Below are positions 8,397-58,061 of a stretch of 64,000 nt of DNA, piece by piece. The notes beneath the pieces are model-generated. The model did not search any database. It was not told the origin of the DNA and saw nothing but the letters and a program-made list of their open reading frames with translations. The stretch spans positions 68,690,984-68,754,983 of the forward strand of contig NC_057919.1 of assembly GCF_018873765.1 (NCBI RefSeq). Direction: 5' to 3'. A program made the translations under genes and the position numbers. Positions within the stretch are counted from its first letter, which is position 1, and every line of letters begins with the position of its first letter. The DNA is from Telopea speciosissima. Its lineage: Eukaryota; Streptophyta; Magnoliopsida; Proteales; Proteaceae.

Positions 8397-8447
8397 CGTA
8401 TTCTAAGTTCCTAGAGTTGGAAACCAAACCCACTTCGCCTGAAAGCC

Positions 8448-10875
8448 ATGGCTTCTATTTCTAGACCATTCTCATCTCTTCCTGTCTTTCTCCTCCTCGT
8501 CATCTTCTTCTTCTCCTCCTCTCCGCCGTCTACGGCGGAGGTAACCACTTCAACAACTATTCAATCCGACTCTATCTGCAAATCCACCCCTCATCCTTCA
8601 TTCTGCACATCCGTACTCCTAAATAATCATTCGGGGGGTAACATCTATGATTACGGCAAGATCTCAGTTCGTCGATCATTATCAGCAGCATCTAAGTTTC
8701 TGGGTTTGGTGAATTGGTATCTTGGACGCCAATCCTCTTTATCCTTATCTGCCATTAGAGCACTTGAAGATTGTAAGCTCTTAGCAGAACTCAACATTGA
8801 TTTCTTGTCAAGCTCAGCTAAAACCGTCAATACTTCAACAACAACTACACTCCCAAAATCAGAAACAGAGGATGTTCATGCCCTGCTTAGTGCAATACTG
8901 ACAAACCAGCAAACTTGCTTAGATGGCCTTCAATCTACTGCCTCAGCTTGGAATGTGAAGAATGGTCTCTACACTCCTCTTACCAATGGAACCAAACTTT
9001 ACAGTCTTTCTCTTGCACTCTTCACCCGTGGATGGGTTCATCATCAAAAGGAGAAACCCAATCACAAAACAGAGAAAAAACAGAGGAGGAAGCTCTTATT
9101 CTCTAGCATGAGAATGTCAAGGAGAAACCAGGAGATCTATGAGAATGTGAGTGGAAGGAGACTTCTACAGACGAGTATGGGGGGTGATGCAGTGGTGGTG
9201 AGAGACATGGTTGTGGTGGCTAAGGATGGAAGTGGGAATTTTACTACCATTAATGATGCAGTGGCTGCAGCTCCAAACAATACTAATATCAACGATGGTT
9301 ATTTCCTTATTTATGTGGTTGCTGGGGTCTATGAGGAGTATGTGTCTATAGACAAAAACAAGTTGAATATTTTGATGATTGGAGATGGTATTAACCATAC
9401 CATTATCACTGGCAACAGAAGTGTTGCTGATGGCTGGACTACTTTCAATTCTGCAACCTTTGGTGAGTTCAATTAAACCATCAATCTTTTAATATTTATA
9501 TAGTTGTGTTATGTGTTTAATGGGGTTCACTCTAGCGTATGGACGCTAGATTGAGAATTCAGATCCTCTCCAATAACATTTAACCATCAGAGTCGATCTC
9601 CCACCATCCTTGGGGTGTGATCTCCAAACTCCATGGGTTGAGCGATAGATGTAGTATATACATTATAAACTTTAAATGTCACCCACATTTTGTTATGTAA
9701 TATATTATATATGAAGATAATAAGTGATATAAACATTTTATTATAGTGTTATTTTAAGTAAAATTGATAATTTTCTCCCCGACCCAGTGCAACCCATGCA
9801 TCTCCCTTCCTCCTCTCCATGATCAGGGCCAATCAGGGTCAGCCCGACCCGACCCTGACTGTGAGTCAGGGTTGGATCGAGCTTGGGCCCAGCTAAGGAG
9901 ACTTAGGGTTGGACTAGGGTTTTATAAAGCCCGGCCCAACCCGACCCAGTTGCACCCCTAATGTCAAGCATAAATGTACATATAAATGATCAAGGCTCAT
10001 ATAGTTGAGTCTGAATCCCCTCCTCAACAGGGAACCACCTTAACTCATCTTACATCGTCCATGGGATGTGGGGATCACACCTCATGGATGGTATGAGATG
10101 GGTTGGAGTGGTTACGTGCACGGGAGAGGAACCTGATTCCATTTGATTTGGGCTAATCAACTTTTGATTTGATGAAATGACAGCCGTGGTTGGACAAGGA
10201 TTCATCGGAGTAAATATGACTATTCGCAACACCGCTGGAGCGATTAAGTACCAAGCAGTGGCACTTCGAAACGGCGCGGATTTATCGACATTCTATAGTT
10301 GTAGCTTCGAAGGTTACCAAGATACATTATACACCCATTCCCTCAGGCAATTCTATAGAGAATGCAACATATATGGCACAGTTGATTTCATATTTGGTAA
10401 TGCTGCAGTGGTCTTTCAAAAATGCAATTTATATGCAAGGCAACCCATTCAAGGCCAATTCAATGCCCTCACAGCCCAAGGTAGAACAGATCCGAACCAG
10501 AACACTGGCACTTCAATTCAAGGTTGCAATATTCTGGCCGCACCAGATTTGATTTCTAGCAATTTTTGTACCAAAACATACTTGGGAAGACCTTGGAAGG
10601 CTTATTCAAGAACTGTTTATATGCAATCATTCATGGATAGCTTGATAGATCCTTCTGGTTGGGCACAATGGAATGGTAGCTTTGCTTTAAGTACTTTGTA
10701 TTATGCTGAGTTCAATAATACAGGGCCAGGATCTAATACTACTAATAGAGTTACATGGTCCGGATACCATGTGATCAATTCTACAGTTGCAGCTAATTTC
10801 ACTGTCTCCAACTTCATATTGGGGGATAATTGGCTACCCCCAACTGAGGTTCCTCACACTGGTGCCTTACTGTAG
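8448..10875 (+). CDS. PME-1: secreted pectinesterase/pectinesterase inhibitor, 2 exons
   Basis: Exons 8448-9462 and 10184-10875 join in phase 1 across a GT-AG intron to give 568 aa. Residues 1-30 form a hydrophobic signal peptide. Residues 35-192 are a PMEI-type pro-region with four cysteines (44, 53, 109, 157). RKLL (214-217) and RRLL (237-240) are subtilase-type processing sites. The pectinesterase domain (about 255-568) keeps GVYEEY, QAVALR, GYQDTLY, DFIFGNA and LGRPWK. Alignment to carrot PME puts the catalytic set at Gln362, Gln384, Asp385, Asp406 (nucleophile), Arg474 and Trp476. It would demethylesterify homogalacturonan in the cell wall, releasing methanol. It is clearly diverged from PME-2 to PME-5 and lacks their cytosolic Lys-rich anchor. 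It looks intact. Confidence 0.93.
9770..9961. repeat. hAT-type MITE remnant in the PME-1 intron
   Basis: The segment ends GTTGCACCCCTA and contains the same GATCAGGGCCAATCAGGGTC block as the complete element at 49958-50346. Only one terminus is recognisable, so it is a truncated copy. It explains much of the unusual length of this 721-bp intron, compared with 122-131 bp in PME-2, PME-3 and PME-5. Confidence 0.65.
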
Positions 10876-11310: not shown

Positions 11311-11735
11311 GGGAAAATTACATGATTAGCTACTTTTGGGTTTTCATTTACAAAACTGTCCACCCTATGTTTGAGTTAACAAAAATAGACAAAAAAAAGT
11401 TTAGTTTTAAAAAGCTAGACAAAACAGTGACACTCCTTCCTTCCTTGGCAGTTTCCCTTTGAAAAACATCTCTTTTTTTTTTCCTCTGTTACTTGGGGTA
11501 GCAAAGAATGGCGGTGGCTAGGACAAGGGTAGGGTTGTAGGGAACAGAGAGGATGCTTGGGTAAGAAGGCAATGACAGGGGTAAAAATATCTAAAAAAAT
11601 ATGTGTGGGAGGGAGAGACACTATTTTGTCTAGTTTTGTAAACCTTAACTTGTTTTTGTCTATTTTTATTAACTCAAACATAGGGTGGACAGTTTTGTAA
11701 ATGAAAACCCAAAAATAGCTAATCATGTAATTTAC
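11311..11735. mobile_element. non-autonomous inverted-repeat element (~425 bp)
   Basis: The left arm (GGGAAAATTACATGATTAGC...) recurs inverted at the right (...GCTAATCATGTAATTTAC). The arms share more than 100 bp, including TTTGAGTTAACAAAAATAGAC, around a short unique centre. The structure fits a foldback or Mutator-like MITE. The target duplication is unclear. It lies between PME-1 and PME-2. Confidence 0.6.
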
Positions 11736-12799: not shown

Positions 12800-12970
12800 T
12801 AGGGCTTCTCTGCAAGCAACCAAAATCAGAGCTGAGGGAGCATAAGCAGTTCGTCTCCCTTCAATTTAATCTTGGCTCTGCTCCGTTCTCTCTCTGATCA
12901 ACCCTCTTTATAGAAAAAAAACAAAAAAAAAAGAAAAAAAAGAAAAGAAATAGCAAACTACTTAAGTTCA

Positions 12971-14859
12971 ATGGCTAGGGGTTACGGGCAAATGTCCGAC
13001 GAGAATGGAGGAGATGATGGAGGTAAAAAGAAGAGAGTCACGATAATTGCCGTGTCTTCATTGGTTCTGGTGGCCATGGTAGTCGGTGTTGCCGTCGGCG
13101 TAAATAACTACAGCTCCTCGCCGAACGAAACCCCGGCAGCTCCAACCACTGAGATAAGCAGCTCCATGAAATCAATCAAAGCTATATGTGAGCCCACAGA
13201 TTTCAAGGAGAATTGTGTGGAGAGTCTATCGTCGGCGGCCGGTAACACTACCGACCCAAAAGAGCTTGTGAAGGTTGCATTCAAGGTGGCTATTAAGAAC
13301 ATCAAACAAGCCCTCAACAAATCAGAAGTGCTCCATGAGCTTGAAAAGGACAATTTTACTGCCCAAGCTTTGGAGGATTGCAAGGAATTGATGGACTACG
13401 CCATTGACGACCTCAAGCATTCTTTTGATGAAGTGAGCGCGTTAGACATGAGCAAGTTGGACGATCTTCTCGTCAACCTCAAGATCTGGCTCAGCGCTGC
13501 TATTACTTACCAGGAGACATGTCTCGATGGCTTTAAGAACACCACTGGGAATGCCGCTGAGTCGATGAGGAAAGCATTAAAATCCTCAAGTGAACTCACC
13601 CGTAACGGTCTTGCCATTGTCGGTGAGATCGCCTCGGTGCTTACCTCCTTACAAATCCCATTCAGCCGTCGTCTTCTCTCCAAGGAACAAGAAAACTTCC
13701 CCCAGCGAACCGAAGACGGTTTCCCAGTTTGGGTCTCTGCCTCTAGACGTAGACTTCTTGCAGTCCCTAAGAGCCAGCTACAGCCCAATGTGATTGTGGC
13801 TCAGGATGGCAGCGGCAAGTACAAGACAATCAATGAGGCTCTCAAAGATGCTATTAGACCCAAGACCGATAAAACTAACACCACCTTCGTCATCTATGTC
13901 AAGGCCGGAGTCTACAAGGAGACCGTCCATTTCCTAAAATCGATGTCTTATGTCATGTTGGTTGGAGATGGACCCCTTAAGACAAAGATCACCGGAAATA
14001 GGAACTTCATCGATGGCACTCCCACCTTCAAGACTGCTACCGTTGGTAAATACTAATTATAATTACTCGATCAGTAGAACTCATCCTTAAAAGTTAGCCG
14101 CCGGTTAAGTCTTTACATTGGGCTACTCACTTATATTTTTATTTTTTTTTTATTTTTGATGAAACAGCCGTGATGGGAGATGGTTTCATTGCCAAGGACA
14201 TCGGATTTGAGAACTCAGCCGGAGCGGCAAAGCATCAAGCTGTGGCACTAAGGGTATCGTCTGATATGTCAATGTTCCAGAACTGTCAAATAGATGGCTA
14301 CCAAGACACCCTTTACGCCCACGCTCACCGTCAATTCTACACTGGATGCACCATTTCTGGAACCATCGATTTCATCTTCGGCGACGCAGCTGTTGTCTTC
14401 CAAAGCTGTAAGATGGTGGTAAGGAAGCCATTGGATAACCAACAGAACATTGTGACAGCTCAAGGAAGGAAGGACCAACGTGAACCCACCGGAATTGTCC
14501 TTCAAGATTGCACCATCACCGCTGACCCATTGTTGGTTCCCTTCATGGCGAAGAACCCATCTTTCCTTGGTCGCCCATGGAAGGAGTTCTCAAGAACCAT
14601 TATCATGAATACCCAGATTGAGAACGTGATCCAACCAGAAGGGTGGCTCCCATGGATGGGCGATTTCGCACTCAACACTTTGTACTATGCTGAGTTCAAC
14701 AACAAAGGCCCCGGAGCTGCTCTCACAAAGAGAGTCAAATGGACTGGCATTAAGACTCCACTTACCACTCAACAAGCTCTGGAATACACTCCTAGTCGGT
14801 TCCTTCAAGGTGATCAATGGATCAAACCCACCGGAGTGCCCTACAAATCCGGCCTCTAG
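12971..14859 (+). CDS. PME-2: membrane-anchored pectinesterase/pectinesterase inhibitor, 2 exons
   Basis: Exons 12971-14045 and 14168-14859 (GT-AG intron of 122 bp, phase 1) encode 588 aa. A short cytosolic tail with KKKR (19-22) precedes one membrane segment (23-44), a type II signal anchor. The PMEI-like pro-domain spans about 66-228 with Cys 73, 82, 137 and 184. Two RRLL processing sites follow (233-236, 260-263). The catalytic domain runs from about 271, with GVYKET, QAVALR, GYQDTLY, DFIFGDA and LGRPWK. By fixed offset to carrot PME the active-site residues are Gln382, Gln404, Asp405, Asp426, Arg494 and Trp496, all present. The expected product is a Golgi-processed wall enzyme that removes pectin methyl esters. 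All signals look intact. Confidence 0.94.
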
Positions 14860-15261: not shown

Positions 15262-15439
15262 GAATTTTTATCCTCTCAATTACACTGCCAGTACTTGGCC
15301 GTCAAGTACATCTAATAGAGGGAGGTGGACCCCACCTCGGGTAGTGTGTTCGGGCAGGGGGTAGGATAGTCATTTCTGCCTCCTCTGTTAGATGTACTTG
15401 AGTCAAGTACGAGCAGTGTAATTGAGAGGATAAAGATCC
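15262..15439. mobile_element. Mutator-like MITE (178 bp) with perfect 9-bp TSD
   Basis: The inverted ends GAATTTTTATCCTCTC and GAGAGGATAAAGATCC are flanked by CAGTGAGAG at 15253-15261 and 15440-15448. The homologous duplicated flank at about 27,677 has a single CAGTGAGAG and no element, which proves the insertion. Extended pairing (AATTACACTGC/GCAGTGTAATT) makes it a foldback. It belongs to the same family as 27908-28065. Confidence 0.85.
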
Positions 15440-18336: not shown

Positions 18337-18508
18337 TAGGGCATCTATGCAAACATCCAAAATCAGAGCTGAGGGAGCATAAGCAGTTCTTCTCCCTTCT
18401 ATCTCATCTTGGCTCTGCTCCCTTGACTTTCTTGAGAGCGATCAGCCCCCTTTTTCAAAAAAAAAAAAAAAGAAAGAAAAGGGAAGCTAAGTTCAAGATC
18501 TTAGGTTT

Positions 18509-18556
18509 ATGGAAAAATGTCGGATGATGGATCTAAAAAGAAGAGAGTCACATTAA
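18509..18556 (+). other. upstream ORF overlapping the PME-3 start
   Basis: A single-base difference creates an ATG 8 bp before the PME-3 start, in another frame. It opens a 15-codon frame that ends at TAA (18554-18556) inside the PME coding region. PME-5 reads ACG at this place, so the uORF is private to PME-3 and would be expected to lower its translation. Confidence 0.6.
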
Positions 18557-20381
18557 TTGCTGTGTCTTCTTTGGTTCTGGTGGCCATGGTGGTCGGTGCT
18601 GCCGTCGGCGTCAATAAATACAACTCTTCGCCGAGCGAAACCCCCACCACTGCAACAACCACTGAGATAAGCAGCAACATGAAATCAATCAAGGCCATAT
18701 GTGAGCCCACTGACTTCAAGAAGACATGTGAGGACAACCTATCTTCGGCAGCCGATAACACTACCGACCCAAAAGAGCTTGTGAAGGTTGCATTCCAGGT
18801 GGCTACTGAGCACATCAAACAAGCCCTCAACAAATCAGAAGTGCTCCATCAGCTTGAAAAGGGCAATTTTACTGCCCAAGCTTTGGAGAATTGCAAGGAA
18901 CTGATGGACTACGCCATTTACGACCTCAACAGGTCTTTTGAGGAATTGGGAGCGTTAGACGTGAGCAAGTTGGATGAACTTCTCGCCAACATCAAGATCT
19001 GGCTCAGCGCTGCTATTACTTACCAGGAGACATGCCTCGATGGCTTCCAGAATGCCACTGTGAAAGCCGCAGAGTCGATGAGGAAAGCATTGAAAACCTC
19101 AGATGAACTCACCCGTAATGGTCTTGCCATCGTCGGCGAGATCGGCTCAGTGCTTACCTCCTTACAAATCCCAGTAAGTCGTCGTCTTCTCTCCAAGGAA
19201 CAAGAAGACTTCCCCCAGCGAACCGAAGACGGTTTTCCAGTTTGGGTCTCCGCCTCTAGACGTAGACTTCTTGCAACCCCTAAGAGCCACCTAAAGCCCA
19301 ATGTGATTGTGGCTCAGGACGGCAGCGGCAAGTACAAGACAATCAATGAGGCTCTCAAAGAAGCTATTAGACCCAAGACCGATAAAACCAACGCCACCTT
19401 CATCATCTATGTCAAGGCCGGAGTCTACAAGGAGACCGTCCATTTCCTTCAGTCGATGTCTTATGTCATGTTGATTGGAGATGGACCCCTTAAGACAAAG
19501 ATCACAGGAAATAGGAACTACGTCGATGGCATTCCCACCTTCAAGACTGCTACCGTCGGTAAATACTAATTATAATTACTCGATAAGTAGAACTCATCCT
19601 TAAAAGCTAGCCGCCCCCGTTAAGTCTTTACATTTACATTGGGCTGCTACTCACTTAATATTTTATTTTTTATTTTTTTGATGAAATAGTCACGATAGGA
19701 GATGGTTTCATTGCCAAGGACATCGGATTTGAGAACTCAGCCGGAGCTGCAAAGCATCAAGCTGTGGCACTAAGGGTATCGTCTGATATGTCAATCTTCC
19801 AGAACTACCAAATGGATGGCTACCAAGACACCCTTTACGCCCACACTCACCGTCAATTCTACACCGGATGCACCATTTCTGGAACCATCGATTTCATCTT
19901 CGGCGACGCAGCTGTTGTCTTCCAGAGCTGTAAGATGGTGGTAAGAAAACCATTGGATAACCAACAGAACATTGTGACAGCTCAAGGAAGGAAGGAGGAG
20001 AATGAACCCACCAGAATTGTCCTTCAAGATTGCACCATCACCGCTGACCCATAGTTGGTTCCCGTCATGGCGAAGAATCCATCTTTCCTTGGTCGCCCAT
20101 GGAAACAGTACTCAAGAACCATTATCATGAATACCTAGATTGAGAACGTGATCCAACCAGAAGGGTGGCTCCCATGGATGGGCAATTTCGCACTCGACAC
20201 TTTGTACTATGCTGAGTTCAACAACAAAGGCCCTGGAGCTGCTCTCACAAAGAGAGTCAAATGGCCTGGCATCAAGACTCCACTTACCACTCAACAAGCT
20301 CTGGCATACACTCCTGATAAATTCCTTGATGGTGATCTTTGGATCAAACGCACCGGAGTGCCCTACAAATCTGGCCTCTAG
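18517..20381 (+). pseudogene. PME-3: membrane-anchored pectinesterase with two nonsense codons
   Basis: The structure matches PME-5: exon 18517-19558, intron to 19689, exon 19690-20381. Exon 1 is fully open and differs from PME-5 at only five residues. Exon 2 carries TAG at 20052-20054 (Leu codon TTG in PME-5) and TAG at 20136-20138 (CAG in PME-5). A Tyr also replaces the Cys before the GYQDT motif. Translation would stop at 468 residues, before LGRPWK, losing the catalytic Arg and Trp and the last turns of the beta-helix. The protein would still contain the anchor, the PMEI-like domain, both RRLL sites and the Asp nucleophile motif DFIFGDA. The damage looks recent because everything else is conserved. 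The mRNA may be a nonsense-mediated-decay target. Confidence 0.9.
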
Positions 20382-23134: not shown

Positions 23135-24308
23135 ACCAAATAACGACAAGAAGACTTCCCCCAGCTAACCGAAGACGGTTTCCCAGTTTGGGCCTCCACC
23201 TCTAGACGTAGACTTCTTGCAATCCCTAAGAGCCAGCTCAAGCCCATGGCCAATGTGATTGTGGTTAAGGATGGCAGCGACAAGTACAAGACAATCAATG
23301 AGGCTCTCAAAGATATCCCCGTTAGAGCGAAGACCGATAAAACCAACACCATCTTCGTCATCTAGGTCAAGGCCAAAGTCTATGAGGAGACCATCCATAT
23401 CCTTCATCAAATGTCCTATGTCATGTTGGTTGGAGATGGACCTCCTAAGACAGAGATCACCGAAAATAAGAACTTCATCGATGGCACTCCCACCTTCAAG
23501 ACTGTTACCTTCGGTAAATAAATAATTACTCAGTAGAACTCATCCTTAAAAGCTAGCCGTTAACCCTTTACATCGAGTTACTCACATATATTTTATTTTT
23601 TTGATGAAATAGTCGTGACAAGAGATGGTTTTATTGCCAAGGACATCGGATTTGAGAACACAGCCGGAGCTGCAAAGCATCAACCTGTGGCACTGAGGGT
23701 ACAGTCTGACATGTCAATCTTCCAGAACTGCCAAATAGATGGCTACCAAGACACCGTTTACACTCACACTCACCGTCAATTCTTCACCGGATGCTCCATT
23801 TCTAGAACCATCAATTTCATCTTTGGCAACGCAGCTGTTGTTTTCCAGAGCTGTAAGATGGTGGTAAGGAAGCCATTGGATAACCAACAAAATATTGTGA
23901 CAGCTGAAGGAAGGAAGACAAGCGTGAACCCACCGAAATTGTCCTTCAAGATTCCACCATCACCGCTGACCTGTTGTTGGTTCCCGTCATGGCAAAGAAC
24001 CCATCTTGCATTGGTCTCCCATGGAAGGAGTTCTCAAAAACCATTATCATGAATACCCAGATTGAGAATGTGATCCAACCAGAAGGGTGGCTCCCATGGC
24101 TGGGCGATTTCGCACTCAACACTTTGTACTATGCTGAGTTCAACAACAAAGGCCTTGGAGCTGCTCTCACAAAGAGGGTCAAATGGTCTGGCATCAAGAC
24201 TCCACTCACCACTGAACAAGCTCTGGAATTCATTACTAGTAGCTAGATTCCTTCCAAGGTGATCAATGGATCAAACCCACCGGAGTGCCCTACAAATCCG
24301 GCCTCTAG
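23135..24308 (+). pseudogene. PME-4: 5'-truncated, catalytically dead pectinesterase relic
   Basis: Homology to PME-2/3/5 starts abruptly at about 23135, in the codons just before the second RRLL site. The anchor and whole inhibitor-like domain are missing. Exon 1 remnant 23135-23513, intron to 23612 and exon 2 remnant 23613-24308 keep the family splice sites. Damage is heavy: TAG at 23363-23365, an extra-base region near 23,315, a one-base loss near 23,920 and an insertion near 24,240. The active site is ruined. DFIFG is now NFIFG (nucleophile Asp to Asn), LGRPW is IGLPW (Arg lost), and QAVALR is QPVALR. This is clearly the oldest dead copy in the array. Confidence 0.92.
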
Positions 24309-28185: not shown

Positions 28186-30136
28186 TAAGGGTGTCAAAAC
28201 CTAGCCCGAACTGTTAGGACCGACCCAAAAAACCCGGACCAAACCGAACCGATCTTTATTAGGTTGGTTTTGGACTGGGGTATGACGGGACCGGCTGAAA
28301 ACCGAATCACACCTAACCGACCTATAACAAATCGAAAACCGAACCGAATGAAACCGATAAGAAAATCATTGAGTATAAGGTTATGAATAGGTTAATTGAT
28401 TATCCATTGATTTCAATATTAGTAAGCAAATTTATGGTTGTAAGGGGAACTTGTTACAAATCAATGAGTATGAGGTTATGAAACAAAGGAAATTGATTTG
28501 TAACCATGCTTCTTCCATTGATCTCCTTGTTTACTATACAAAATTAGTTGGTTATCAAATAAATGATTTGATAGTAGGATTCATTTTGTGATTTCAATAT
28601 TAATTATCTTCTCAATGACCATTCATTGATTTCAATTTTAATTATCTTCCCTTTACAATTAATGATAAATATTTATATCATTTGTAATAATGATTTTGCT
28701 GTAAACTCTATTAATCCATTGATCTAAATATTAATTATCTTTCATTATTCCCCATATAATTTAGGGGAAAGGTTTCGTACACGGTCGTGTAAACCATGTA
28801 CGAAACTTTTCCCTCCTTTACTTTTTTTTTTTTAATGAAAACCCCCCCCGTCCTCTTTCCTCTCCATTTCCTTCTACCATTCTTCTCCGTCACCGGCTCC
28901 CATCCCCCTCCTCCTCCGGCTCCAGCTCCCTCTTCCCTTCCCTCCCTCTCTCTCTCTCTTCCACATACGGCTCCGACCCTCCCGCCCCCTCATCTTCCAC
29001 AACCCTCCATGCCAACATCCCCCATCACCTCCTGCCCTCGGGTAAAGCTGAATAGCAAGAGTGACGGTCATAGACTGTGAATCACACAGAAGAGTCGGAG
29101 AGAGATAGAGTTTTAGAGAAACTGAGCCACCGAAATCCCTAAGAACATAGAGAGGAGAACAATCGAGGTAAGTAAATTTTTAAGTTTCTTTTTCTGGGTT
29201 TTTTTAATCTTCTTCTTTTGTAGTTATCTTTTATAGATTTGTTTCTGGTTTCTCTCTCTCAAGTCTTTTTCATAATTCTGCGAAAAATCGTAAACAACTC
29301 AATACGATCTTTGTCATATTCTGAGTTATGAAATCGTAGCCATTGATTCGTAATCCTCTTCTCTGTTTTTCTTTTATCTTTCTATTCTTTTTGTCTTGTG
29401 GGTTTTCTCTTTTTATACTTGAACTGTTCTTTCTTTCAGGTTCTCTTTCTCAAATCGGAAGAATAAAGGGAGATTTACAGAGAATAGGTAGATTGGAGGA
29501 GTTATGTCGGCTAGTTTTGGTCTGTTGATTGGAAGATGAGGGGGCGGGAGGGTAGGAGCCGTATGTGGAAGAGAGAGAGAGAGAGAGAGGGAGGGAAGCG
29601 AAGAGGGAGCTGGAGCCGGAGGAGGAGGGGGATGGGAGCCGATGACGGAGAAGAATGGTAGAAAGAAACGGAGAGGAACGAGGAGGGGGGGTTTTCATAA
29701 TAAAAAAAAGAAGTAAAGGGGGGAAAAGTTTCGTACACGGTTTACACGACCGTGTACAAAACCTTTCCCCTATAATTTATTCTTCTTTGTTCAAATTATA
29801 ACATCAACATATCAAATCAATTTTCTTATTTTTGGTTGTATACTTGTTTTGACTTGGGAAGGTGAATTGAAGTGTTTTTATCGAATTTTTCCTCACTACA
29901 AATTATGAATTTAAGATTTCATTGTGGCTCAAACTCGAAAACAAACTGATCTAAATCGATATTAATCCGACATTAAAAACCTAAAATAAACTGAAATCGC
30001 ACCGGGCCGAAATCGAAACCGAAACCGAAACCGAAACCGAAGTTTCTTAACGGTTTGGTTTTGGTCTCACCATTCCGGGATCGAAACCAATTCAGCCCAA
30101 CTAAAACCGAACCGAACTGACTATTTGACAACCCTA
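28186..30136. mobile_element. hAT-type element (1951 bp, ~0.94 kb without its nested insert)
   Basis: Ends TAAGGGTGTCAAAA and TTTGACAACCCTA are flanked by TGTATGGG (28178-28185) and TGTACGGA (30137-30144). The uninterrupted sister sequence upstream of PME-3 reads TGTACGGGTATTG near 17,350. The interior is dominated by AACCGAACC/GGTTTGG-type inverted filler, including five GAAACC/CGAAAC-type tandem units near 30,010-30,040, and has no transposase. A Mutator-like element (28764-29770) is nested inside it. Confidence 0.85.
28764..29770. mobile_element. Mutator-like element with ~240-bp TIRs and intron-like insert
   Basis: Terminal repeats run about 28764-29003 and 29532-29770, starting GGGGAAAGGTTTCGTACAC and highly similar when inverted. 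A perfect 9-bp duplication TATAATTTA lies at 28755-28763 and 29771-29779. Between the TIRs is a transcribed-leader-like segment with a GT-AG interval (29168-29439, GTAAGT donor and TTTCTTTCAG acceptor) and no long ORF. This fits a Pack-MULE that captured a 5' leader with its leader intron. The source gene is not recognised. Confidence 0.85.
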
Positions 30137-30783: not shown

Positions 30784-30964
30784 TAGGGCATCTATGCAAA
30801 CATCCAAAATCAGAGCTGAGGGAGCATAAGCAGTTCTTCTCCCTTCTATCTCATCTTGGCTCTGCTCCCTTGACTTTCTTGAGAGCGATCAGCCCTCTTT
30901 ATCAAAAAAAAAAAAAATAGAAAGCAAAGGGAAGCTAAGTTCAAGATCTTAGGGTTACGGAAAA

Positions 30965-32829
30965 ATGTCGGACGATGGATCTAAAAAGAAGAGAGTCACG
31001 TTAATTGCTGTGTCTTCTTTGGTTCTGGTGGCCATGGTGGTCGGTGCTGCCGTCGGCGTCAATAAATACAACTCTTCGCCGAGCGAAACCCCCACCACTG
31101 CAACAACCACTGAGATAAGCAGCAACATGAAATCAATCAAGGCCATATGTGAGCCCACTGACTTCAAGAAGACATGTGAGGACAGCCTATCTTCGGCAGC
31201 CGGTAACACTACCGACCCAAAAGAGCTTGTGAAGGTTGCATTCCAGGTGACTACTGAGCACATCAAACAAGCCCTCAACAAATCAGAAGTGCTCCATCAG
31301 CTTGAAAAGGATAATTTTACTGCCCAAGCTTTGGAGAATTGCAAGGAACTGATGGACTACGCCATTTACGACCTCAACAGGTCTTTTGAGGAATTGGGAG
31401 CGTTAGACGTGAGCAAGTTGGACGAACTTCTCGCCAACATCAAGATCTGGCTCAGCGCTGCTATTACTTACCAGGAGACATGCCTCGATGGCTTCCAGAA
31501 TGCCACTGTGAAAGCCGCAGAGTCGATGAGGAAAGCATTGAAAACCTCAGATGAACTCACCCGTAACGGTCTTGCCATCGTCGGCGAGATCGGCTCGGTG
31601 CTTACCTCCTTACAAATCCCAGTAAGTCGTCGTCTTCTCTCCAAGGAACAAGAAGATTTCCCCCAGCGAACCGAAGACGGTTTTCCAGCTTGGGTCTCCG
31701 CCTCTAGACGTAGACTTCTTGCAACCCCTAAGAGCCACCTAAAGCCCAATGTGATTGTGGCTCAGGATGGCAGTGGCAAGTACAAGACAATCAATGAGGC
31801 TCTCAAAGAAGCTATTAGACCCAAGACCGATAAAACCAACGCCACCTTCATCATCTATGTTAAGGCCGGAGTCTACAAGGAGACCGTCCATTTCCTTCAG
31901 TCGATGTCTTATGTCATGTTGATTGGAGATGGACCCCTTAAGACAAAGATCACAGGAAATAGGAACTACGTCGATGGCATTCCCACCTTCAAGACTGCTA
32001 CCGTCGGTAAATACTAATTATAATTACTCGATCAGTAGAACTCATCCTTAAAAGCTAGCCGCCCCCGTTAAGTCTTTACATTTACATTGGGCTGCTACTC
32101 ACTTAATATTTTATTTTTTATTTTTTTGATGAAATAGTCACAATAGGAGATGGTTTCATTGCCAAGGACATCGGATTTGAGAACTCAGCCGGAGCTGCAA
32201 AGCATCAAGCTGTGGCACTAAGGGTATCGTCTGATATGTCAATCTTCCAGAACTGCCAAATGGATGGCTACCAAGACACCCTTTACGCCCACACTCACCG
32301 TCAATTCTACACCGGATGCACCATTTCTGGAACCATCGATTTCATCTTCGGCGACGCAGCTGTTGTCTTCCAGAGCTGTAAGATGGTGGTAAGAAAACCA
32401 TTGGATAACCAACAGAACATTGTGACAGCTCAAGGAAGGAAGGAGGAGAATGAACCCACCGGAATTGTCCTTCAAGATTGCACCATCACCGCTGACCCAT
32501 TGTTGGTTCCCGTCATGGCGAAGAATCCATCTTTCCTTGGTCGCCCATGGAAACAGTACTCAAGAACCATTATCATGAATACCCAGATTGAGAACGTGAT
32601 CCAACCAGAAGGGTGGCTCCCATGGATGGGCAATTTCGCACTCGACACTTTGTACTATGCTGAGTTCAACAACAAAGGCCCTGGAGCTGCTCTCACAAAG
32701 CGAGTCAAATGGCCTGGCATCAAGACTCCACTTACCACTCAACAAGCTCTGGCATACACTCCTGCTAAATTCCTTGATGGTGATCGTTGGATCAAACACA
32801 CCGGAGTGCCCTACAAATCTGGCCTCTAG
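30965..32829 (+). CDS. PME-5: membrane-anchored pectinesterase/pectinesterase inhibitor, 2 exons
   Basis: Exons 30965-32006 and 32138-32829 (intron 131 bp, phase 1) give 577 aa. The start MSDDGSKKKR corresponds to the second methionine of PME-2, because the PME-2 start codon is not conserved here. An anchor segment spans about 11-32, then a PMEI-like pro-domain (about 55-217), RRLL at 222-225 and 249-252, and a catalytic domain from about 260. Gln371, Gln393, Asp394, Asp415, Arg483 and Trp485 correspond to the carrot PME active site. It is the intact twin of PME-3. Its 3' UTR is interrupted 117 bp after the stop by a 1.77-kb Mutator-like element, so the usual AATAAA now lies near 34,799. Confidence 0.94.
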
Positions 32830-32946: not shown

Positions 32947-34717
32947 GGGAAATTTACACATACCACCCCTGAGGTTTGACGAAAGGATATTTTCACCCCC
33001 CAGTTTTGGAAAATTCTGCGCACCCCCCTGAGGTTTGCAAACAATAACAAATAAGCCCATTCCGTCAGTTCATGACTAACACTATTAAAAATTAGACTTG
33101 AATTGACGGAATTGCACTTCTAAGAAGAACCCAAAAAAAAATAAGATGTGAATGGACAAAATTACCCTTACAAAGGGAAGAAAAAAAAATCCTGCAATTC
33201 ATCTTCCCCAATCGAATTGGGGAAGATGAGTTGCAGGTTTCAAAACCATAAGGGTTTTTCTTTTGTTTCTATAATTATGATTAAGAGAAATAAAAGGAGT
33301 AGGTTTTAAACTGGAAAATCCTAGGCAATTGGGTTTCAAAACACTTTTCAATCGTTTAGAAGTTTAGGGTTTGAAATTGGGGAACAATCCCAAATCCCTT
33401 TTCGGACCTGCAACTTGTCTTCATCCCCAATCATAACAGAAACTGTTCATATGACTCTATTAGTACTCCACATTCTCTCCTCAGAATTCGATTATGCTAT
33501 TGTCGCCATGAAAAAGAGATGCCTCTGCCTCTGAAAGTTTAGTACGAGTTCTCAGGTATAGACATCGTTCAAAATTCTTCTTCTCCTTCTATCATGAAAC
33601 CAAGTCCTTTGCATTTTGATCAGAGTACACCAAAAAAAGAGAGGCCCAGTCCGATGAGAACAAGGGGCAATTTTCCAAATTCTCCACTGATCAGAGGGAG
33701 AATGGTTAAGGATGAAAATTCAAGCATGGTTTTCAGATCTACAGTGGGTGGGCTTTTGTCTAAGATGTCAGATTCAAAGGGAGAAAGCCCTGTCCATGTC
33801 AGGAAGAGCTGTGTTACGCCTTTTTCTGTCTTTAAGGTTGCAAGGAGCAAGAGTGTGTGCAAACCAGAGCCAATGATCCCAAAAAGTCTCTTCAACAATA
33901 CTGTAGGTACATTTTTCCTCTGTACCATTTTTGTAACTTTGCAATATAACTGGACACAATTGTACTTTCTCCCAATTCTTTGGTACTACTCAAAAGAGCT
34001 AGTCCATTCACAAAGAACTGCATAAATTGAAACAGTCCCAGTTAAATAGTTCAGTTTCCTTGAACAAGTTTTGGAGATGAACTAAATTATTATGTCTATT
34101 CTGCTTACTCCAGGAAAAGAAGAGTTCAACTCCCACTCCCAGATTAAGAAATGTAAGAGTAGGAGCCTCTTCCAATCAGGCAGGGGAAGAACAGAAACAG
34201 AACAACTCAAATTCCAATGGAACTTTACAACTGCAATCTCAGTCTGGTAATTCAAAATCCAAGCACGTTGGTAGTCTGTCCATGTCTTTACCTGGAAACC
34301 TTAGTGTGCTTGGAAAGGTAACTTTATAATTTGGGATTGTTAATGCATTTCCAGCGTGAGCTCTTCTTCTTCTTTGTACTATTTGGACGCTATTGCTTTG
34401 TACGGGCATCAAAGGAAAGATAGGGAGTGGTGGTGAACAAATCAGAGTTTAGGGTTAAGGTTTGAGGGTGGAGCAAAGAGTGATGGTGACGATGGTGATG
34501 ATTCAGTTTTGGATATCTGTTTTTTTTTTTTGGGTTCTTCTTAGAAGGTCAATTCCGTTAGTTCAAGTTTAATTTTTAACAGTGTTAGTCATAAACTGAC
34601 GGAATGGGCTTATTTGTTACCATTTGCAAACCTTAGGGGGTACGCAGAATTTTCCAAAACTGGGGGGGTGAAAATATCCTTTCGTCAAACCTCAACAGTG
34701 GTATGTATAAATTTCCC
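32947..34717. mobile_element. Pack-MULE (1771 bp) inserted in the PME-5 3' UTR
   Basis: Long inverted repeats of about 190-200 bp (32947-33140 and 34530-34717) start GGGAAATTTACACATACCAC and contain GAGGTTTGACGAAAGGATAT. A 9-bp duplication TTTATTTAT lies at 32938-32946 and 34718-34726, although the target is itself ATTT-repetitive. The interior holds exon-like coding blocks with splice sites (33594-34317) and no transposase. Outside the element the PME 3' UTR resumes with TCTTCCCCTTGTTTCTTCTC. Confidence 0.87.
33594..34317 (+). pseudogene. captured host-gene exons, Ser/Pro/Lys-rich protein of unknown identity
   Basis: One open block, from the ATG at 33594 to a donor at 33902|GTAGGT, reads [20 protein letters not shown] ... 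[21 protein letters not shown] second block, 34114-34317, lies between an acceptor TTACTCCAG and a donor AAAG|GTAACT. It reads EKKSSTPTPRLRNVRVGASS ... SLSMSLPGNLSVLGK. Both are in phase 0 and uninterrupted, giving 171 codons if spliced. The composition is basic and low-complexity, with no domain I recognise. The open frame may begin slightly upstream (about 33,545). It is a fragment of a longer gene, since no stop follows the second donor in frame. Confidence 0.6.
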
Positions 34718-54436: not shown

Positions 54437-55295
54437 TTAAGGAGTCACAACCAGACATCCTTGCCCCTTTGAGGCCTTGGAGCACTCTTGTGATTGTGGC
54501 CTCCATCCTATCTCTTGTACCACCAAAGATCATTTCCCAACACTCATTGAGTAGTCTAAGTCAAAATTTTGGCTTTATCTTAATCGTATGATCCACCATT
54601 ATTGAATTTCTTACGTACATTATAATTAATCATATCTGATTCAGAATAATAATAAAACGATTAATGTGATAATTCTATCTGTTGGATAAATAGAGGACAA
54701 TGTCAACCTCTAATGGTATAACAATTTAATTACAAGAGAAGAAAAGAATTAATCTGATAATAGATTTTAGGATCTAGTTTCTCTAACCCATAGTGAAGAG
54801 ATTATATCTCTTCATCTACATCCACACATTGAGAAAGGTATTTTGAACCTTTAACAATAGGGGGTGGATGTTATTGATGACATTCACTCTTCCCGGAGTC
54901 CAATCATAGCATCAAATCCTATGGCGAATAAAAACTAAAATTTATAACAAAATTTAGGGAAAAAGGTCGTATATTGTGTAAAAGTGTACAACCCTCTCAT
55001 AGTCTATACCCTCCTCTCTCTGACACACCCTCTCCTTACTTTCGTGCCCACTATTTGATGAACCGTCTCAAACCCCACAATTGGTGGGGTATGTTGTTGA
55101 TACCACCTCAATTTATCCATCAAATGTGATGCATTGTAGGGTACAATGCTATAAGTTGGGCCAAACAATGCTACAAGTTGGGCCAATGTGGGCAATTAAT
55201 GTTCAAAATTTATCAATTACCCGACTCAGCCCGGTTGCACCTACTAGAAAGTAAATAATGGTACCCTTTTCATAAACACCCTCGGATTTTTTTTT
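54437..55295. other. intergenic interval without features
   Basis: AT-rich DNA. A short internal duplication of ACAATGCTACAAGTTGGGCC lies near 55,145-55,185. No gene seen. Confidence 0.4.
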
Positions 55296-55618
55296 GGGAA
55301 AATTTCACGTACTACCTCTGCTTCTCAAACTAAGCAACAAAAAAAACCAGTCTGTCAACTGATGATAAAAAACGTTAAAATTATATTATAAATGACCAAA
55401 ATATCCTCATCTTCCCCAAATTGCCAAAATCCACTTCAATGGATTTAGATTGAAGCCAAAATGATGAAGCAGCAATCTGACCCCTCTTTTGGTTTCGTCA
55501 AGCTTCGATTAGGTGTTCTACTTTCAAACCAATCGATTTGGGGTTCAAACCGTAAACGATTAAGGTTTATGATCTTAAAAACTCTTTCTATGATGATGAT
55601 GATGGTTCACACACAAGT

Positions 55619-55890
55619 GTGACGAAGGAGGAAATAAGAATGGAAGTGGAGGATTCAATATACCTCATAATTAGAATGCAGGCGGTGGACGGAGAGGCGG
55701 AACCGGTGAGGAGCTTCACGAGAAAATTCAGACTCCCGATTATGATTGACGTTAATGGAATCTCCGCTGGCTATGAAGATGGGGTTTCGAGGGTTACCGC
55801 TCCTAGATCTTTCATCAACAGACGACTTCGTATTGATACTGCAAATCTGCCGGAGTGCTATGAAGTTCTTGCACCAGCGACTCTAAGAAG
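55619..55890 (+). pseudogene. captured alpha-crystallin/Hsp20-like domain fragment
   Basis: The frame from 55619 reads MTKEEIRMEVEDSIYLIIRM, then EAEPVRSFTRKFRLPIMIDV, NGISAGYEDGVSRVTAPRSF and a short tail RIDTANLPECYEVLAPA. The 'F.RKFRLP...DVNGISAGYEDGVLxVTVPR' pattern is the end of an alpha-crystallin domain (small heat-shock-like proteins). The usual hydrophobic residue after GV is Ser here. The frame then runs into a G homopolymer and unrelated sequence. It is a partial domain, unlikely to act as a chaperone. Family assignment is from memory of the pattern and is moderately sure. Confidence 0.6.
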
Positions 55891-55992
55891 GAGGGGGGGG
55901 GGGGGAAGATCTCAATTCTCAAAATTTGTAGAAGAACCCGCTTCCTATTTCATCTTCGTTCTCTTCTTTGCTCGATCTCATTATAGGCATGG

Positions 55993-56440
55993 ATGGAGAA
56001 TCAAGAATGGAAGCCTCAACACTCGGATGCATTGGGGCCGTCTATAGGGTTCACTCTGGGCACGACTCTACTGCTGAATGTCATATTTTGCCTGAGCGGC
56101 TTTTTCTCTTGCTACTACTACTACTACCGGGACAAGATTCGCTCTCTTCGTCGATCTTTCTTCGACGATAACGATTCCGACATCGGTTCAGCCCCCAAAT
56201 CACCTTCCAAATCTAAACCCACCCACATGGTACATCTGTCCTCTATGTTTCTCCGGGACAAGATTCGCTCTCTTCGTCGATTTTTCTCCGTATATCTTTT
56301 TCTTTTGTTCTTCCCTGTTTGTTTTGTTGTTTACAAGTTACAACAAACCTTAAACATTAATTTATGTTTTGTGCTCTCATCACTTATCAGGATTCGAAGT
56401 TAAACAATAGTGACAACTTGCCAGGAGTAATGTCCGACGA
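55993..56440 (+). pseudogene. captured exons of an At5g65660-like membrane protein
   Basis: Exon 55993-56229 encodes MENQEWKPQHSDALGPSIGF, then TLGTTLLLNVIFCLSGFFSC (a membrane segment), a Tyr-rich DKIRSLRRSF stretch and SDIGSAPKSPSKSKPTHM. It ends at a GTACAT donor. After acceptor TTATCAG, the start of exon 2 (56391 on) reads DSKLNNSDNLPGVMSDDRI in the correct phase. Pattern and order match a family of small plant proteins with one N-terminal membrane segment (hydroxyproline-rich glycoprotein-like, At5g65660 type). In that family the tail continues 'LPVLMPGDxxPKF'. Here exon 2 runs into the element's right TIR. A 30-bp piece (GGACAAGATTCGCTCTCTTC...) is repeated in exon 1 and in the intron (about 56,130 and 56,257). 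Confidence 0.65.
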
Positions 56441-56510
56441 TCGGATTCGGCGGAAGATGAGGGCATTTTGGTCAATTAAAATACAATTTTAAAGTCACCA
56501 ATTAAAAGAA

Positions 56511-57744
56511 GGGTTTTTTATCATTACCATCCCAAAAACTTTGATATTTACTATTATCCCTTTAAAAACTTTCAAAAAACTATTACCCTCCCCTGTTGCA
56601 TACTAATAACTAACTGGCCCTCACCGTTATATTTTCGTAACGGAGAGGGTTAGTCATGACAGTGTGCTGTTGTCATGGATTTTTTAGGACCGAAATGCCC
56701 TTTTGGGTGGTAATTGTAAAAAAAAAAAACCCGCCCATCACCGCCCCTTCTCCTTCTTCTTCTTCCTCTACAATCCCAAACCTTGTTTTCTCCACTTGAT
56801 TCTTCTTCTATATAGAATAGATTATCCAAAGCCAGAAAAAAATGTTATTAACTCACTCCCTACAAAAACTAGAACGTAAACAGAGCTGTATACATTAAAG
56901 GATATGGTGATAAATGTTTAAAGAAGAGAAATCCTATGGGAAAGCTAAAATGAAAACATGAAACAAAGTTTCTTCGAATTGAATAAGATGGGGACAAAAT
57001 GTAAAGCAGAAATTTCAATTTTTCTCAGACATAGAATTCAGCAAATTTAGGATAAGAGAAAATCAGATTCAGGGAACGTACCTCCCGATTCATGGCTGGG
57101 AACATCCGCAGTAAGATGGAGACCTTATCTTCAAATCCTAACCCGAAATCAGAAGAACAGATCGAAGAACCAAAAGTCGAACACCAAGCTCTCTTAGCTG
57201 AGGAAGACGGCGTAGAAGATCCGAAGATTTCTTCGAACCCCAGCTGCTTACCGCAAACACCAGCAGACATCGCCACCAAACCCTAGTACCCGAAAAAACC
57301 CTAGGGTTTTGATCGGAACGAAAACGATTAAAATGATAAATTTCAGAGATTTGTAGGGTTTCTGAACCTCTTCTTCTTCTAGAAACCCTAAATCAGTAAA
57401 GCTCAGATGAATTGTAAAACCGATTTATCGGTCTTCGATTCACCAATTCGTACAATAATCTCTCCTAATAATTTTGCACCTTTGAGTTTGAAGGAGGAGG
57501 AGGAGAAGGGACAGTGATGGGGTGGGGTTTTTTTTACAATTACTATCCCAAAATGGGCATTTTGGTCTTAAAAAATCCGTGATAATGGCACACTGTCACG
57601 ACTAATCCTCTCCGTTACGAAAATGTAATGGTGGAAGCCAGTTAGTTATTAGCATGCAACAGGGGAGGGTAATAGTTGTTTGAAAATTTTTAGGGGGATA
57701 ATAATAAATATCAAAGTTTTTGGGAAGATAATTGTAAAAAACCC
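56511..57744. mobile_element. Pack-MULE nested in the right TIR of the outer element
   Basis: TIRs of about 220 bp (56511-56732 and 57525-57744) start GGGTTTTTTATCATTACCAT. A perfect 9-bp duplication TTAAAAGAA lies at 56502-56510 and 57745-57753. The interior holds an exon of a CUE-domain gene on the minus strand. No transposase is present. The TIRs are similar but not identical, with differences and small gaps, so it is not extremely young. Confidence 0.88.
57082..57279 (-). pseudogene. captured first exon of a plant CUE-domain gene
   Basis: The minus-strand frame MVAMSAGVCGKQLGFEEIFG, then SSTPSSSAKRAWCSTFGSSI and DKVSILLRMFPAMNRE, ends at a donor GAG|GTACGT. The natural start is probably the inner MSAGVCGK. 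'MSAxVCGKR..FEE..SPPxSKRxR' followed by 'LxxxFPxMDREL' is the N-terminus and first CUE helix of At5g32440-type ubiquitin-binding CUE proteins. The remaining CUE residues (second exon) are absent. The exon is open, with only missense-type changes relative to what I expect. Confidence 0.62.
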
Positions 57745-58061
57745 TTAAAAGAATGGATTTTTTTGTTACTTTAGTTTTAAAAGTAGTGGAAGTATGTGAA
57801 GTTTTTCAACTTTCATGGGTGAAAGTGTAATTAAGGAAAACCTCGGGGAGGTACATGAAATTTTTTCTTTTTTTCAGTTTCCGTGGCAATTGATTTGAGC
57901 TAGTGAGCGGCGAACTGCGGGTGACGTTCCACTGGCCTACGGACCATCCAACGGTCTATTTCTCACACGCCTGGCGTCCTACGCACTTGAAAAATCGAAG
58001 GAGAAGATAATAAGCGGGAAAGACGAATAGTTGAATATTGGAACTCCTGTACTCACACACA

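Follow-up and report, generated by a model that had tools for sequence, protein, structure and literature searches.

We consider it very likely that the interval 55296-57867 of the window (the whole 64-kb stretch of DNA analysed here) is occupied by two Mutator-like elements, both non-autonomous and differing in their ends, which each carry host gene pieces acquired at the DNA level, and that the inner of the two entered the outer at a later time. The anatomy of the locus is that of a Pack-MULE, in nested form. Seen directly in the DNA are the two pairs of ends, the order of their nesting, the duplication flanking the inner element, a partial Hsp20 domain, and GT and AG motifs at the exon borders. 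The inner element and its boundaries are as follows.

56511-57744, no strand assigned: inner Mutator-like element, 1234 bp, delimited by inverted ends and a perfect TSD
56511-56767, plus strand: inner left inverted end, from end-to-end alignment
57488-57744, minus strand: inner right inverted end, from end-to-end alignment
56502-56510, no strand assigned: left copy of the inner TSD, TTAAAAGAA, directly outside the tip
57745-57753, no strand assigned: right copy of the inner TSD, TTAAAAGAA, directly outside the tip

The two ends of this element, with tips GGGTTTTTTA facing outwards, align with 221 of 258 columns identical (86%) and a score of 325; none of 300 dinucleotide shuffles exceeded 32. 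The first-pass annotation of this DNA, made by eye from the letters, had described them as inverted copies of about 220 bp; the inversion stands on alignment, and the length is nearer 257 bp. The perfect duplication it had claimed is present at both tips, 9 of 9 bp. When 81 registers were allowed, 22 of 20,000 random anchor pairs had a perfect 9-bp repeat by chance, and with the register fixed, 3 of 200,000 random position pairs did. Taking long TIRs of more than 75% identity and a TSD of 8-11 bp as the marks of a MULE, the inner element has both the TIR identity and the TSD of one.

The ends of the outer element need to be put together from separated parts, and for their placement we also make use of a further element of the window, at 32947-34717.

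55296-57867, no strand assigned: outer Mutator-like element of the Pack-MULE type, inner element included, placed by its inverted ends, likeness to 32947-34717 and a 7/9 TSD
55296-55415, plus strand: outer left inverted end, with about 61 columns fewer than the right end in the region of the tip
56452-56510, minus strand: outer right inverted end, inner half, containing the left inner TSD copy, from alignment to the left end
57754-57867, minus strand: outer right inverted end, outer half, from alignment to the left end and to 32947-34717
55287-55295, no strand assigned: outer left flank TTTTTTTTT, a possible TSD, 7/9 and of low complexity
57868-57876: right counterpart of the possible outer TSD, TTTTTTTCA, 7/9 against TTTTTTTTT
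32947-34717: Mutator-like element, 1771 bp, ends 183/204 identical, perfect TSD TTTATTTAT, tips GGGAAATTTACACATACC

The outer right end runs from 57867 to 57754 and resumes from 56510 to 56452, with the inner element lying between. The outer left end matches both sides of this interruption, 57805-57750 on the far side (score 55) and 56495-56452 on the near side (score 60), and deleting the inner element together with one TSD copy joins the two halves into a match with a score of 100, compared to at most 32 in 500 shuffles. Because the outer end is continuous only when the inner element and one TSD copy are removed, the inner element must have arrived after the outer one, in agreement with the earlier proposal of a second element in the outer right arm. 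An arrangement of this kind might also be generated by a MULE with tandem TIRs. Extracts of PMC3310237 on MULEs with multiple or tandem TIRs describe an extra set of inverted ends inside the element, as here, where in addition the outer right end repeats a tip-like motif, and they list, among the possible origins of the extra TIRs, a nested insertion that subsequently lost its TSD. At the present locus, in contrast, the inner pair is unlike the outer (the left ends of the two elements, aligned to each other, score 21, no better than shuffled sequence at up to 28) and has its own perfect TSD; we thus reject the tandem-TIR interpretation and read the structure as a nested insertion. The outer and inner right ends do have a 22-nt stretch in common, 82% identical, so the two end families are not wholly without likeness.

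Once rejoined, the outer right end aligns to the left end with 90 of 118 columns identical (76%), over 55299-55415 only, with a score of 98 against at most 33 in 300 shuffles; with scoring that makes long gaps cheap, it scores 103.4, whereas 1000 shuffles give no more than 46.1 and random window pairs no more than 41.1. The inverted outer ends of the first-pass annotation are therefore real on alignment, and over that same stretch, after rejoining, the outer element has long TIRs of more than 75% identity. The pair is missing from a window-wide inverted-repeat scan (E 1e-10, pairs within 6 kb), being split and weaker.

The exact termini require more careful consideration. Of 20 bases compared between the left outer tip (GGGAAAATTTCACGTAC at 55296) and the right outer tip (GAAAAAATTTCATGTAC, read inward starting at 57867), 15 agree, and the best local alignments of the outer ends begin at 55299/57805, not at 57867. 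The tip-like motif of the outer right end is repeated about 60 bp inward, as a 19-bp match. We nevertheless reject a right end at 57805, since 32947-34717 aligns with the outer right end to about 57867. A search of the window using the outer ends as queries found the ends of 32947-34717 at 62-64% identity (E 8e-7 and 3e-4), and this likeness supports the outer right terminus. An end scan (left limits 55255-55304, right limits 57795-57889, no more than two mismatches, 13 or more of 20 tip bases matching) passed five combinations, every one with its right end at 57866-57868. In a four-way alignment, the left outer end is without about 61 columns found at the right end and in 32947-34717, which might mean that about 61 bp were deleted internally or, alternatively, that the original tip was lost. 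The possible outer TSD, TTTTTTTTT against TTTTTTTCA, agrees at 7 of 9 positions within a T run and falls within the two mismatches at most that are allowed for TSDs according to extracts of PMC3903597 and PMC4858842; T-rich as it is, with 1.7% of the 9-mers in the window equally near to nine Ts, it proves little.

The interior of the outer element, 55416-56451, begins with about 140-170 bp (55416-55588) without assigned identity, followed by pieces of two genes.

55589-55888, plus strand: Hsp20/alpha-crystallin domain fragment, from Pfam PF00011 and PDB matches
55640-56047, plus strand: 135-aa open frame that starts in the Hsp20 piece and continues, out of register, into the second piece, from frame analysis
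55993-56229, plus strand: exon 1 of the second piece (MENQEWKP...), 79 codons from the ATG at 55993, then a GT donor, from frame and splice motif
56230-56390, plus strand: presumed intron of the second piece, GT...AG, from splice motifs
56391-56492, plus strand: exon 2 of the second piece, entering the outer right inverted end, stop at 56490-56492

The PF00011 match (E 1.5e-6, 28.6 bits with a cutoff of 20.8) covers profile positions 18-88 of 102, a longer frame over the same piece gives E 5.4e-6, and its PDB matches are plant small heat-shock proteins, the best at E 2.6e-4. Judged by these matches, the outer element carries part of a non-transposon (Hsp20) gene. The antisense frame of the piece gave PF04013 at E 0.013, below the Pfam cutoff. 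A run of 13 G separates the Hsp20 piece from the second piece, which, if spliced, would encode 112 aa. The second piece had no Pfam match above the cutoff, and it is presumably At5g65660-like. At5g65660 itself is a hydroxyproline-rich plasma-membrane glycoprotein, according to an extract of PMC3538058. A 38-bp stretch of the first exon, 56127-56164, recurs in the presumed intron at 56253-56290 with 36 of 38 bases identical, compared to at most 27 in 200 shuffles; it may be the scar of a template switch or may have been present already in the source gene.

The interior of the inner element, 56768-57487, reads on the minus strand as leader-like sequence, an exon, a donor motif and intron-like sequence.

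57082-57270, minus strand: exon-like block, 63 codons from the ATG, MSAGVCGKQLGFEEIF..., with leader-like sequence before and a GTACGT donor motif after

This block, presumably of CUE type, had no Pfam match, and its best PDB match was at E 0.62. At 85 codons, the longest frame of the inner element is unremarkable: 102 of 300 shuffles reach that length. Gene capture by the inner element is thus putative, resting on the exon-like frame, the donor motif and the presumed CUE-type name. For the second and third pieces, together with the pieces in 32947-34717, Pfam gave only below-cutoff hits (DUF7220, E 0.77; DUF4054, E 3.4). A bacterial promoter and terminator scan was also run and is uninformative for plant DNA.

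Three unrelated gene pieces had been named at the first pass, two on the plus strand and one on the minus. The strands are as described, the second and third pieces do have open frames and splice-site motifs, and the Hsp20 piece is upheld by Pfam; the At5g65660-like and CUE names draw no support from the Pfam and PDB tools. Since the inner cargo and two of the three names are putative and the left outer tip may be truncated, we regard that reading as partly supported, its nesting, both TIR pairs, the inner TSD and the Hsp20 piece having held.

How might such a structure have arisen? All of the pieces might have been copied from genes elsewhere through template switching or the synthesis of DNA during repair; in the literature, as given in extracts of PMC8277862 and PMC4858842, capture is modelled as repair synthesis, gap filling or template switching. 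The kept intron and the donor motifs point to capture at the DNA level rather than from a retroposed mRNA. The outer element would have taken up the Hsp20 piece and a second, 5' gene piece and then moved upstream of the CAP-H2 gene. The inner element would have taken up a leader, a first exon and part of an intron, and would later have inserted in the outer right inverted end, making the 9-bp duplication. The second and third pieces would then represent truncated host genes. Transposase was perhaps supplied in trans; no transposase family scored above the Pfam cutoff in any of the eight frames of at least 70 aa inside both elements. In this setting the gene pieces, which may be transcribed, are most likely carried along without a function as protein.

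Several other explanations have to be weighed against this model. The inner and outer elements might constitute one compound transposon that moves as a unit, so that later copies carry all three gene pieces. Outer end sequence does lie outside the insertion on both sides (120 bp on the left and 114 bp on the right, for a total of 2572 bp), as such a unit demands. No second copy of either element occurs within the 64-kb window, however, and part of the left outer tip may be missing; we regard this explanation as improbable. Its extension to a working compound element, in which the outer tips would mobilise the three pieces, the inverted ends would drive chimeric transcripts and capture would grow stepwise by the nesting of Pack-MULEs, appears to us decidedly improbable.

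We find it very improbable that the captured blocks yield a working chimera, be it transcript or protein; candidates for this would be, for instance, the 112-aa frame produced by splicing and the 135-aa frame that includes Hsp20 sequence. An open stretch of 163 codons in the outer interior, equalled in only 4 of 300 shuffles, and the kept splice motifs would fit with this idea. Yet an open frame of this length is expected of a recently captured exon anyway and is no evidence of function, the Hsp20 domain is partial, and beyond the Hsp20 piece the frame does not follow the register of the second piece. That the pieces are remains of local genes broken by transposons, for which the 55416-55588 segment ahead of the Hsp20 match might be cited, is hardly credible and we reject it, because the second piece passes straight into the outer right end, the inner ends enclose the third piece on both sides with their own TSD outside, three different pieces are packed inside 2.6 kb, and the one recognised flanking gene, CAP-H2, is unrelated to the Hsp20 piece.

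That neighbour, the condensin-II CAP-H2 gene, is recognised by Pfam PF06278 on two neighbouring stretches, and the outer element ends about 440 bp upstream of its likely start codon (ATG 58310). The first-pass annotation had asked whether neighbouring genes could be the source of the exons; the only neighbour recognised, CAP-H2, is not the source of the pieces.

A location upstream of a gene is typical of Pack-MULEs. Besides this location, the two nested elements have in common with Pack-MULEs the long inverted ends, the 9-bp TSD (of the inner element), frames without transposase match, gene pieces with intron or splice motifs, and the presence of two adjacent pieces within one element. For Oryza, an extract of PMC4858842 gives about 5-10% as the proportion of MULE-derived putative genes that drew on at least two parental genes. 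What differs here is that one element has inserted into an inverted end of a second element, whose ends are unlike its own. Nesting in MULEs is itself common, judging by the counts in an extract of PMC3903597, with nested transposon insertions in 191 (36%) of maize and 195 (41%) of rice coding-MULEs; the phrase ‘nested Pack-MULE’ was not found in the literature searched. The Pack-TIRs of animals, as described in an extract of PMC8277862, are likewise inverted-repeat DNA transposons with captured non-transposon sequence, for which gap filling or template switching has been proposed; they are animal elements, whereas ours are in a plant. The locus is therefore a clear, well-formed example of a known process and not something new, and it leaves the picture of Pack-MULEs unchanged. 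Its value is that of a tidy, ordered record, in which two gene-carrying elements that retain reading frames and splice motifs occupy one site upstream of a gene, and if the source genes are located, it would offer capture junctions for studying how such elements acquire DNA.

Lastly, we describe the surroundings. The content of the window, with matches to pectinesterase, copia gag, reverse-transcriptase-like RNase H and CAP-H2, marks it as plant DNA. The window is rich in inverted-repeat elements with 9-bp direct repeats: the window-wide scan returned five inverted pairs (at most 6 kb apart, E 1e-10), four of them having matching tips flanked by a perfect 9-bp direct repeat. Besides the inner element, two more Mutator-like elements with perfect 9-bp TSDs emerged from that scan, 32947-34717 and 28764-29770. 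The former holds two exon-like frames (33543 to about 33905, and 34114-34317) with splice-like borders and no Pfam match above the cutoff, and is perhaps a third Pack-MULE. The latter, of about 1 kb, has ends 91.6% identical over 250 columns and a perfect TSD TATAATTTA, and its interior resembles, by eye, a 5' leader and an intron. A 178-bp, MITE-like inverted-repeat element lies at 15262-15439 with a perfect 9-bp direct repeat CAGTGAGAG, and an inverted pair at 11315-11733 (126 bp, 91%) had no perfect flanking duplication of 8-10 bp in the scan. Minus-strand retroelement remains comprise a reverse-transcriptase-like RNase H (PF13456, 50677-51141) and a copia gag (PF14223, 35391-36056). In the region 8415-32850, a pectinesterase at 8415-10872 is confirmed by Pfam, and further pectinesterase-like frames are apparent by eye at 12914-14856, 18505-20051, 23564-24049 and 30953-32826, two of them nearly identical.
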